A stretch of 64,000 bases of DNA from Alphaproteobacteria bacterium (GTDB lineage Bacteria > Pseudomonadota > Alphaproteobacteria > Micavibrionales > Micavibrionaceae): the NCBI GenBank assembly GCA_009995595.1, contig JAACPE010000002.1, forward strand, positions 186,001-250,000, read 5' to 3'. The notes beneath the pieces are model-generated. The model ran no database searches. It worked only from the letters and a program-made list of their open reading frames with translations, and was not told where the DNA came from. This document shows, in pieces, positions 1 through 2,470 of this stretch. The translations under genes were made by a program, and so were the position numbers. The number at the start of each line of letters is the position of its first letter. Within the stretch, counting starts at the first letter, position 1.

Positions 1-47
1 ATTTGACAAAAATAAGGCAGATACGCAATGATTAAAAGGTAGCAAGT

Positions 48-62
48 TTAAAACTTTATTAA
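48..62. promoter_or_regulatory. CtrA-type box (TTAA-N7-TTAAC) upstream of the first repeat-protein gene
   Basis: Two TTAA half-sites (48-51 and 59-62) are separated by exactly seven bases, and the second is followed by C, matching the full CtrA consensus of Caulobacter and relatives. The box lies just before the AGGAG ribosome binding site (about 68-72) of the gene starting at 80. A possible -35 hexamer TTGACA is at 3-8, but its -10 partner is poor. The position close to the start codon would suit repression better than activation. CtrA binding is inference. Confidence 0.5.
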
Positions 63-79
63 CTTTTAGGAGAACTATT

Positions 80-628
80 ATGAGAAAGACTACAAAATTA
101 GCCTTAACTTTAACTTGTGCAGCTGTGATGGGCTTTACTGCTGCGCCAGCTAAAGCAAATGACCTTATTAATTCATCAGTTAGTGGTTATGTCGGCGGGG
201 ACATCACACAGAGCGTAAGTGGTTATGGAGCCAACGCAGATCTAAACGTTGGGTCTATTGATACAGAGTTTTCATATGGTCCAGGAGGTGCGTATCGTAA
301 TTTAGAAGCAGAAGGTCGCGTTGGTGGGGATGTTACACAGATTGCTAGAACTGGTGGCGGTTGGGTATCCCCAGATTTTAAATTAGAGGCGCAAATTGGT
401 AATATTAAAGCAACGGCAGCGACAAACAGCTATGCTTTTGGAGCAGTTGAAGGTGATATCACCCAAGTAGTGGATGGAGAATCATCTGCCGAACTTCATG
501 TTGGTAGCATGATGACTGATAATGGTACTATTGAAAATAGCACCGCTATAGGTTTTGTAGGTGGTGATGTAACACAACGCGCAACAAATGGTGCGAAAGC
601 ATCAGCCCGCGTAGGTTCATTAAGATAA
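80..628 (+). CDS. Secreted protein with four V-x-G-D-[IV]-T-Q repeats
   Basis: A 182-residue protein with a clear Sec signal peptide (hydrophobic core about 6-20, cleavage probably after AKA at 24-26). The mature part is four imperfect units of about 30 residues (about 31-60, 74-109, 116-144, 153-180). Each has the pattern N-S-x-x-x-G-x-V-x-G-D-[IV]-T-Q, then a Gly/Ala/Ser stretch, and ends in V-G-S-[ILM] or a variant. The core motif is at residues 38-44, 81-87, 123-129 and 160-166. The spacing, the absence of Cys and the alternating hydrophobic/polar residues suggest stacked beta-strands, as in curli-like or beta-solenoid fibre subunits. A good ribosome binding site AGGAG precedes the ATG. 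The next genes carry shorter versions of the repeat and a CsgG/HfaB-like lipoprotein, so it is probably a surface fibre or attachment protein. I do not recognise a named family. Confidence 0.8.
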   Translation: MRKTTKLALTLTCAAVMGFTAAPAKANDLINSSVSGYVGGDITQSVSGYGANADLNVGSIDTEFSYGPGGAYRNLEAEGRVGGDVTQIARTGGGWVSPDFKLEAQIGNIKATAATNSYAFGAVEGDITQVVDGESSAELHVGSMMTDNGTIENSTAIGFVGGDVTQRATNGAKASARVGSLR

Positions 629-641
629 TAAAAGAATTAAG

Positions 642-672
642 GCCCGAGAGTAAACCTCTCGGGCTTTCTTTT
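642..672 (+). terminator. Rho-independent terminator
   Basis: A perfect 9-bp stem GCCCGAGAG (642-650) / CTCTCGGGC (656-664) with a 5-base loop is followed by a T-rich tail. It sits between the first repeat-protein gene and the rest of the cluster. It may attenuate rather than end transcription, because the next gene follows within 30 bases with no obvious promoter. Confidence 0.85.
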
Positions 673-698
673 ACCCAAAATTAAAAAGTTAAGAAAAG

Positions 699-995
699 AT
701 GAAAAAAATAATATTAACAATTATATTATCTGCATACGCTGTCATACCTATAGCAGCGCATGCAAATGAAATGATTAACTCAAGCGCAGAGGGCTATATA
801 GGTGGTGATATCGTACAATCTGCATCTGGGGCATCAACCAATGAGATTTTCGTGGGGTCGATTGTTAATGAATCTGGTCGTTCACTGAGAAATATTCATG
901 TACAAGCCCATGTTGAAGGGGATATAGTTGTAAATACAAATAATGGTGCGCATTCACGAGTTTCTATAGGGTCATATATTCAAAAAAGACGATGA
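699..995 (+). CDS. Small secreted protein with two repeat units, paralogue of the preceding gene
   Basis: A 98-residue protein with a Sec signal peptide (cleavage near AHA at 20-22). Residues 26-55 form a full repeat like those of the gene at 80-628: N-S-S-A-E-G-Y-I-G-G-D-I-V-Q, then V-G-S-I. Residues 64-92 form a second, weaker unit (V-E-G-D-I-V-V, then S-I-G-S-Y). Its length, export signal and shared repeat suggest a minor subunit or nucleator of the same surface structure, by analogy with CsgB/CsgA or HfaA/HfaD; that role is inference. Its stop overlaps the start of the next gene by four bases (ATGA at 992-995), so the two are translationally coupled. Confidence 0.75.
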   Translation: MKKIILTIILSAYAVIPIAAHANEMINSSAEGYIGGDIVQSASGASTNEIFVGSIVNESGRSLRNIHVQAHVEGDIVVNTNNGAHSRVSIGSYIQKRR

Positions 996-1306
996 AAAAC
1001 GCTCTTCTTGCTTTAATATTACTAATACCATCCTATTCTGCGATTGCGCAGGATAAGCCGAATGCAGGTATAGAAAATCTCTATCGCGGTGTAAAAACAA
1101 ATGATTTAATAACTTTTCTTCCACCTCGTCTTGGGCAAGACTCTCTATTAAATAATAACAACGAAGATGGATTTTTTTCTAGGGATAACGGCTGCCCAAA
1201 TGAAATTTTAATTGGCTCTGTCGCTGAAGATTCGGGTATAAGAGGGTCTGTTGACATTGATGTCGTCATTGATAGTGATATTACTATTGTGTGTGGCGGC
1301 TTATAA
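992..1306 (+). CDS. Small secreted protein of the repeat-protein cluster, two cysteines
   Basis: A 104-residue protein with a signal peptide (about 1-19, cleavage near AIA-Q). It has only a trace of the repeat seen in the two upstream proteins: E-I-L-I-G-S-V followed by D-S-G and a D-I-x-V-x-I-D-x-D-I run. Two cysteines, one before that motif and one in the C-terminal I-V-C-G-G-L, could form a disulfide in the periplasm or at the surface. It overlaps the preceding gene by four bases and the lipoprotein gene follows after 12 bases, so the three form one transcription unit. No family recognised. Confidence 0.7.
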   Translation: MKNALLALILLIPSYSAIAQDKPNAGIENLYRGVKTNDLITFLPPRLGQDSLLNNNNEDGFFSRDNGCPNEILIGSVAEDSGIRGSVDIDVVIDSDITIVCGGL

Positions 1307-1318
1307 AAAGCCTTTTGA

Positions 1319-2470
1319 ATGAAATCTCTTGCTCAAAAATTTTCTACTATTTTGGTATCGCTCGCACTTACCGCATGTGCAGCGAACCCTCTACAAACCA
1401 AAGTTAAGCCCAAGAACGAACCAACTTATAACTTTACGCAGAGTTCTCAGGTCTTGTCTTGTGTAGGAAATTTTATTAACCTTGGCAATAAGCCGCCTGT
1501 TGATATTTTTATTAGCAGCATTCCTGATCACACTATCCCAACAATTGAGACAGGTTTTTTAACTAAAAATGCTATTATGATGGTGAACACGGCTTTTGAT
1601 CGCCTTCAAACAGAATTAGTGAGTATAGTTGGTAATGATGGGGGTATGAAAGATCGGCTTCAAGTTCAAGTTTTAGGGGCTTTTACAGAATTAAACCGCA
1701 CGACGCGCTCTAGTGCTGCAAGCGGTGAAGTTATTATTCCTGGTGGTTTTGAGTTAGAATTTGGAAATGATCAGGCCTATAACCATATCGCATTAGATTT
1801 AGCGCTTAGCTACAAAAATAGGATCGTTCCAGGAACAAGCACAAGTGTAAGTATCCAAATTGATGGAGGATCAGGAGATATTACCCTAAGTTACGACGAG
1901 GGCGATGAATTTGCCGCGATTGGCGCACTTGGTTTTTCTGGCCAAGAGGGTTTTCACTCTGCACAACGCTTGTTGGTTGAAACGGCTGTTGCAATAATGA
2001 TGGCACGCTTTTATTCGTTAGATATTCGTCAATGTTGGAATAAAACGAAAAAGCCAAGTCATGAAAGCCCAGTTTTCGATTATGATTACCCAGTATTTGA
2101 TGTAAGCACGATAGACCAAAAAAAAGAAGTGCTCATCAATAGTAGTGTCCCAAATCGTGTGTGGATGGGTGATAGAGAAACATTCCTTATGAGCCCAGCT
2201 GTTAATGAGCCGCTCTACCAGCCTGAAGTTGCTAATCCAAACCCAGGAATAGTTATTATGCCGCAGGGCGTTACAAAGCAATGGGACAGCAATAGTGAAC
2301 GCTGGGACGCACCCCCTTATTATTATAATCAAAATTCAGCAATCCCATCACCCGTGGAAGCAGAAAGCTTAAAGCTATATCAAAATAGACAATCAAATTT
2401 TGCTGTTCCTGCTCCGCCGCAGCCAGATATTTCTGTGACAGCTCGTCAAAAAACATTATTTATTCAGTAA
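1319..2470 (+). CDS. Outer-membrane lipoprotein resembling CsgG/HfaB secretion proteins
   Basis: A 383-residue lipoprotein. The lipobox L-T-A-C puts the lipidated cysteine at residue 20. Residues 40-240 follow the general plan of the CsgG/HfaB family: an early L-x-C-V, a V-D-I-F-I strand, a long helix around A-I-M-M-V-N-T-A-F, a strand G-A-F-T-E-L-N followed by R-S-S-A-A-S, a strand H-I-A-L-D-L-A-L, a Ser/Thr/Gly-rich hairpin region that could form the barrel, and a closing helix ending in D-I-R-Q-C-W. CsgG exports curlins and HfaB exports the Caulobacter holdfast anchors. Here the partners would be the three small secreted proteins encoded just upstream. The last 140 residues are Pro/Gln/Asn-rich and not family-like. 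The assignment rests on pattern resemblance only. The gene runs convergently into yffB with a 15-base overlap. Confidence 0.55.
   Translation: MKSLAQKFSTILVSLALTACAANPLQTKVKPKNEPTYNFTQSSQVLSCVGNFINLGNKPPVDIFISSIPDHTIPTIETGFLTKNAIMMVNTAFDRLQTELVSIVGNDGGMKDRLQVQVLGAFTELNRTTRSSAASGEVIIPGGFELEFGNDQAYNHIALDLALSYKNRIVPGTSTSVSIQIDGGSGDITLSYDEGDEFAAIGALGFSGQEGFHSAQRLLVETAVAIMMARFYSLDIRQCWNKTKKPSHESPVFDYDYPVFDVSTIDQKKEVLINSSVPNRVWMGDRETFLMSPAVNEPLYQPEVANPNPGIVIMPQGVTKQWDSNSERWDAPPYYYNQNSAIPSPVEAESLKLYQNRQSNFAVPAPPQPDISVTARQKTLFIQ

Follow-up and report, generated by a model that had tools for sequence, protein, structure and literature searches.

What might be displayed at the cell surface by a four-gene cluster that encodes two predicted secreted repeat proteins, a third small secreted protein, and a lipoprotein resembling the CsgG/HfaB export channel? 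The cluster lies near the start of a 64,000-nucleotide (nt) stretch of DNA, here called the window, from an alphaproteobacterium of the Micavibrionaceae (GCA_009995595.1, contig JAACPE010000002.1, 186,001-250,000, forward strand), and all coordinates below are positions in this window. It consists of four same-strand open reading frames (ORFs) at 80-2470, which we call A, B, C, and D in that order. A first-pass annotation of these letters had proposed a surface-fiber locus. Our analysis indicates that A to D probably form an export locus of the curli/Hfa type with a different substrate of its own, the units of A stacking into a fiber or an adhesive layer. Four genomes of the host family, our own included, contain the cluster and are termed carriers; the other three are termed relatives.

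Lipoprotein D and its kinship to CsgG and HfaB

D is a remote homologue of CsgG and HfaB, as is clear from the comparison of its fold, which was made with a model of moderate quality. When the D monomer model was compared to solved structures with VIA, CsgG entries occupied rows 1 to 7 (Z 13.0 to 10.6), with 135-176 residues aligned at root mean square deviations (rmsd) of 3.7-6.4 Å. The best rows, 7brm and 4uv2, both reached Z 13.0, compared to Z 9.7 for the top non-CsgG family, and Foldseek likewise returned 4uv2 as its best match (E 5.4e-5). The NCBIfam model holdfast_HfaB (NF037935) matched D at E 8.4e-5 (21.9 bits, below its curated cut-off of 300 bits). This cut-off was passed by none of the 104 family genomes, in which canonical-looking HfaB proteins score 165-177 bits. 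In a scan of our own genome with the HfaB model, for which the E. coli and Caulobacter controls were positive, D was the sole match, a weak one (E 0.067). In profile comparisons, D matched a set of six HfaB proteins at 97.3% over 236 columns and a second HfaB set, seven proteins from the host family, at 93.9%; the match to five DUF4384-type lipoproteins reached 98.2% over 261 columns. Searches of solved-structure sequences with D and with the D alignment gave nothing relevant. The resemblance to CsgG/HfaB claimed in the first-pass annotation was thus upheld by fold and by profile comparison, but not by the HfaB cut-off or by the Pfam CsgG family.

Lipoproteins whose lipobox cysteine is not followed by Asp at position +2 are, as a rule, sorted to the outer membrane, and the corresponding residue in D is Ala (LTAC-A, by reading). 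Besides the lipid cysteine, Cys48 (1460-1462) and Cys239 (2033-2035) of D are invariant in nine homologues and might form a disulfide.

The repeat proteins, protein C, and the signals around gene A

By reading, A, B, and C each start with a signal peptide. Their repeats were scored with a hidden Markov model (HMM) made from the units of the three relatives only, our own proteins being left out, and 500 shuffles of each protein served as the comparison. Mature A contained four copies of the repeat (85.9 bits, compared to 8.9 for the best shuffle) and mature B contained two (47.5 bits, compared to 13.0), which confirms the numbers of copies counted at first sight. By eye, the consensus is approximately N-x-A-x-G-x-V-x-G-[DSN]-[IV]-x-Q, followed by a variable stretch and then [IV]-G-[ST]-[IV]. 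The profiles of A and B matched each other at 98%, and with units cut by hand the copy numbers were fixed at four in A and two in B in each of four genera. A model of A from four input sequences was a stacked beta-solenoid with a predicted local distance difference test score (pLDDT) of 79.9 and a predicted template modeling score (pTM) of 0.74, the stacked beta fold that had been expected. In Foldseek, two functional amyloids, FapC and CsgA, were the solved structures nearest to this model, neither at a significant level.

A trace of the repeat had also been suspected in C, and here the outcome was equivocal. A 39-column alignment of the B and C profiles reached 83% (78% in the reverse direction), yet C scored only 3.0 bits on the unit HMM, inside the range of its shuffles (maximum 9.6), so C is at most possibly related to the repeat of B. 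C is also characterized by a two-cysteine tail that follows the pattern C-x(2-5)-[IVLN]-G-[NSV]-[VI]-x(12-24)-[DN]-[IV]-[IVFT]-x(1-5)-C; an earlier pattern search for C-type proteins had missed one of those in distant genomes described below, that of G220. No Pfam family scored above its cut-off for any of the four proteins, and no NCBIfam family did so for A, B, or C.

The 70-73 nt gap between A and B holds a terminator-like hairpin in all four carriers, with unrelated sequences and z scores of -5.6, -2.4, -4.4, and -2.9 compared to base shuffles, which fits A being made in excess. Upstream of A, a TTGACA element was found at a similar position in most of the loci (Table 1). The first-pass annotation had pointed to a perfect CtrA-type box before the first gene. 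The letters are present, and the two loci with a box agree in its position within 1 nt, but control by CtrA is not convincing, since the box occurs in only two of the four loci and is not rare in the window (8 boxes, compared to 3.5 expected from base composition). If TTGACA belongs to the promoter, transcription starts upstream of the box.

Table 1. Positions of the genes, repeats, and candidate signals of the cluster in the window (aa, amino acids)
Feature	Position	Strand	Details
Candidate -35 element (TTGACA) of the cluster promoter	3..8	+	at -77/-78 from the A start codon in 3/4 loci
CtrA-type box TTAA-N7-TTAA, probably chance	48..62	+	2/4 loci, at -32 and -33 from the start codon
Gene A	80..628	+	ORF; 182 aa, predicted secreted, four repeats; predicted beta-solenoid, likely major subunit
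Repeat 1 of A	158..265	+	residues 27-62; unit HMM 35.1 bits
Repeat 2 of A	293..412	+	residues 72-111; unit HMM 9.8 bits, weakest copy
Repeat 3 of A	413..523	+	residues 112-148; unit HMM 27.5 bits
Repeat 4 of A	524..625	+	residues 149-182; unit HMM 26.5 bits
A-B intergenic terminator-like hairpin with T-rich stretch	641..672	+	4/4 loci
Gene B	699..995	+	ORF; 98 aa, predicted secreted, two repeats; possible nucleator or anchor
Repeat 1 of B	765..869	+	residues 23-57; unit HMM 24.9 bits
Repeat 2 of B	870..986	+	residues 58-96; unit HMM 28.1 bits
Gene C	992..1306	+	ORF; 104 aa, predicted secreted; 4/4 family loci; possible channel accessory or end cap
Two-cysteine tail of C	1193..1294	+	residues 68-101; pattern fits 8/8 C-type proteins (descriptive only, as it was written from these 8) and 1/237 window ORFs (C itself)
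Gene D	1319..2470	+	ORF; 383 aa, CsgG/HfaB-like lipoprotein, likely export channel
Lipobox LTAC of D	1367..1378	+	residues 17-20; C20 invariant in nine homologues
CsgG-like domain of D	1436..2044	+	residues 40-242; best CsgG alignments span 32..242 and 38..244

Distribution in the host family and in distant alphaproteobacteria

At E 0.01, our D matched 6 of the 104 family genomes, four of them strongly (our own included) and two weakly (G071 and G021); the latter two had no repeat protein in the stretches examined. The A profile matched 4 of the 104 genomes at the same threshold, which were the four with a strong D. This profile was built from D's own four carriers, and the agreement therefore tests merely that no further carriers appear and is not independent evidence of co-occurrence. 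With the same profile, no repeat protein without D was found among the 104 genomes, in line with the initial proposal that the two go together. Conservation of the gene neighborhood also held, the order A-B-C-D being kept in 4/4 carriers. The three relatives are metagenome-assembled genomes, two of them named Micavibrio sp. and one Alphaproteobacteria bacterium. Compared to our own proteins, theirs are 46-47% identical in D, 38-49% in C, 32-36% in B, and 34-38% in A.

Nine genomes of the same genus gave no D match at E 0.001. A scan of a contig collection gave nothing with D alone and only the three already known relatives with the D alignment. The two neighbors of our cluster, an ABC-F gene and an ArsC-type gene, abut each other in the same-genus genomes G009 and G001, 3 nt apart, which indicates that gain or loss affected the cluster as a whole; these are two of eight same-genus loci retrieved via the ArsC-type neighbor, and the other six have other neighbors. 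By eye, the flanking genes differ among the four carriers. In the window, the 3' ends of D (+) and the ArsC-type gene (-) overlap by 15 nt (2456-2470), as if the cluster were tightly fitted against its neighbor.

Across the class, a nine-sequence D profile matched 27 of 385 genomes at E 1e-6, and eight of these, our own included, scored at least 150 bits; five of the seven distant strong genomes were rows of the profile itself. The other 19 matches lay at a place also found by the HfaB model in 18 cases, the exception being G465. A repeat protein and a C-type protein stand ahead of D in three of the distant strong genomes (G220, G356, and G420), and in a fourth (G469) a repeat protein lies approximately 1 kb ahead of D. 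Plasmid AZO_p4 of Azospirillum lipoferum 4B also has genes for a repeat protein and a C-type protein ahead of D, the latter separated from D by two further genes; in its annotation the repeat and C-type proteins are hypothetical proteins and D is a DUF4384 protein. In G420 and A. lipoferum, the repeat protein was identified by eye. A profile of three distant repeat proteins matched 3 of the 385 class genomes, which were its own sources, two of them with a second copy. No match to D was found in viral contigs, plasmids, and phages with either a D profile or our own D, and tblastn with the G356 repeat protein gave nothing in a plasmid collection that includes AZO_p4. The gap after the repeat gene was also inspected in four distant loci. 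In three, a strong hairpin with no clear T runs was present (z about -2.5 to -2.8); the fourth, in G420, had none (z -0.7).

Whether the distant repeat is homologous to that of A and B was judged from two kinds of comparison. Profile-profile scores of the distant repeat were above those of shuffles for mature A (21.6, compared to a maximum of 15.5 in 60 shuffles), for the pooled units (17.57, compared to a maximum of 12.02 in 100 shuffles), and, slightly, for mature B (17.4, compared to 15.3); for C the score of 16.2 was below the shuffle maximum of 17.2. Single HMM scores did not exceed shuffles: on the pooled unit HMM the distant repeat proteins scored within theirs, the Micavibrio profiles of A, B, and C found none of the distant proteins, and the A8 profile gave no match to the G420 repeat protein. 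Homology of the repeats is for this reason suggestive only. The distant C-type proteins scored 21.8 against C, compared to a shuffle maximum of 20.65.

Directly after the D homologue of G420 (L132 6309-8960), there is an 883-codon open frame with many VNVGG..A..QxIG-type repeats, possibly a giant relative of the repeat proteins. Three distant D homologues (L024 3908-6454, L026 3565-5832, and L133 7075-7890) each have a neighbor that, going by its motif, resembles a caspase-type peptidase. Other distant D homologues lie, by eye, near CHASE2-like adenylate cyclases or Crp-type regulators.

Fiber, anchor, or signaling lipoprotein

From these features we infer how the locus would work. D would be lipidated, travel to the outer membrane, and assemble an export channel like that of CsgG. 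A, B, and C would enter the periplasm by means of their signal peptides, and A and B would leave through D in an unfolded state. Once outside, every repeat, approximately 35 residues long, would fold as one coil of a beta-solenoid, and the units of A, in excess because of a terminator after its gene, would stack end to end. The two-repeat B could serve as a nucleator or anchor, as CsgB does for curli, and C could assist at the channel or cap the end; the gene for C adjoins D in some distant loci too.

Several results weigh against this reading. The D model is of moderate quality (mean pLDDT 49.5, pTM 0.49), with 113 of its 383 residues at pLDDT 70-90, none above 90, and 225 below 50. The HfaB score of D is far under the curated cut-off, and in Pfam D matched neither CsgG (PF03783) nor any other family up to E 10. 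For A, the Foldseek match to FapC was not significant (E 2.2e-3, probability 0.14), and CsgA, which tops the VIA list, did so at Z 6.6 and rmsd 9.0, in the range of chance. The genes are also found apart. No C-type partner of D was seen in G469, and neither a repeat protein nor a C-type partner was seen in G476, G125, and G146 (3 of the 7 distant strong D genomes), both within the stretches examined; D of A. ramasamyi has no visible partner, and the second G220 repeat protein has no D match in the surrounding 12 kb.

The alternative that survives best, although we hold it to be unlikely, is that D and the small repeat proteins are an anchor rather than a fiber, a complex in the outer membrane that keeps a polysaccharide or some other adhesin on the cell and forms no long filaments, as HfaABD of Caulobacter, which is described as anchoring the holdfast polysaccharide (PMC6707917). 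Like that system, the cluster encodes an HfaB-like lipoprotein together with small secreted partners, and the shortness of A and B and their fixed copy numbers in four genera suit an anchor. The partners differ, however: compared to three HfaA and three HfaD sequences, A, B, and C gave profile probabilities of at most 1%, and we rejected them as HfaA/HfaD homologues. In addition, no polysaccharide genes were noticed by eye in the ORFs directly flanking the four clusters.

It is quite improbable that D is instead a periplasmic or signaling lipoprotein that just has the CsgG-type domain in common with many other envelope proteins, with A to C being surface proteins that use another export route. 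The fold class of D also matches FlgT, PelC, LptE, and TraT (Z 7 to 9.7). PG_binding_1 and DUF4384 domains occur in distant D homologues, which often lie, by eye, near adenylate-cyclase or caspase-like genes. CsgG, however, leads the best other family by 3 Z units, the nearest sequence families of D are HfaB and the DUF4384 type, and the cluster keeps D in all four carriers. The lipoproteins of other alphaproteobacteria with DUF4384 and PG_binding_1 domains, such as that of AZO_p4, have a CsgG-like N-terminus and are the closest profile match of D, and in some cases genes for a repeat protein and a C-type protein precede them. They differ from D in their C-terminal domains, of which D has none, and no B gene was noted beside them. 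Our literature search found no paper on the A-B-C-D cluster and none pairing DUF4384 with CsgG; PMC13397529 is a broad survey of CsgG-like pores.

Divergent curli in the strict sense, with subunits derived from curlin, are ruled out on the missing curlin repeats, for all that the cluster resembles curli in having CsgG as the top fold match of D, a larger and a smaller protein with a common repeat, and a solenoid model for A. The curlin repeat is given as X6QXGX2NX10 (PMC3521004), and not even the minimal pattern QxGxxN occurs in A, B, or C. At E 1, the curlin repeat family PF07012 was absent from our own genome and the three other carriers as well as from G220, G356, and G420, and Pfam scans of A to D, to which the search of this genome for CsgE and CsgF was limited, gave no CsgE, CsgF, CsgG, or curlin match. 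G469 has curlin repeats (23 matches) at a place other than its D locus.

The reading that we prefer, A to D as a curli/Hfa-type export locus with its own substrate, could be extended to a separate class of alphaproteobacterial nucleation-type secretion. Such a class would combine a D-type channel, a two-cysteine C, and non-curlin solenoid subunits in a compact spreading unit with which Micavibrio-type epibiotic predators hold their prey. We regard this extension as speculative and rather doubtful, and the attachment to prey within it is a guess based on the group to which the host belongs. Micavibrio aeruginosavorus is described as feeding while attached to its prey (PMC3189940), and the words curli, holdfast, and CsgG are absent from the main text of that paper. 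If the host lives like this species, the cluster would be candidate machinery for predator attachment. Curli-type export is usually recognized by curlin repeats or Csg models, and no protein of this locus passes these, so that standard annotation does not see such systems. With only four genes and a well modeled solenoid subunit, the compact cluster would also allow an easy test of what CsgG-like channels export.

A second HfaB-type locus was found in 7 of the 104 family genomes (G062, G103, G123, G098, G063, G071, and G008; L051-L057). Like the A-D cluster, it belongs to the host family and pairs an HfaB homologue with secreted partners, but its HfaB scores 165-177 bits and its partners have approximately 355, 145, and 170 aa. 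A, B, and C gave no profile match to these partners beyond the signal peptide, and the one set scanned (G103) belonged to no NCBIfam family. These loci encode a protein of 354-377 aa containing IGDVTA-like repeats, another of 137-183 aa that starts like NKPFSF, a LuxR-type regulator in 7/7 (by eye), and a two-cysteine protein of approximately 145 aa in 6/7. One further genome, G139, has five HfaB-type matches, three of which lie within 15 kb (L098, C1:457729-472593) as repeated three-gene sets.

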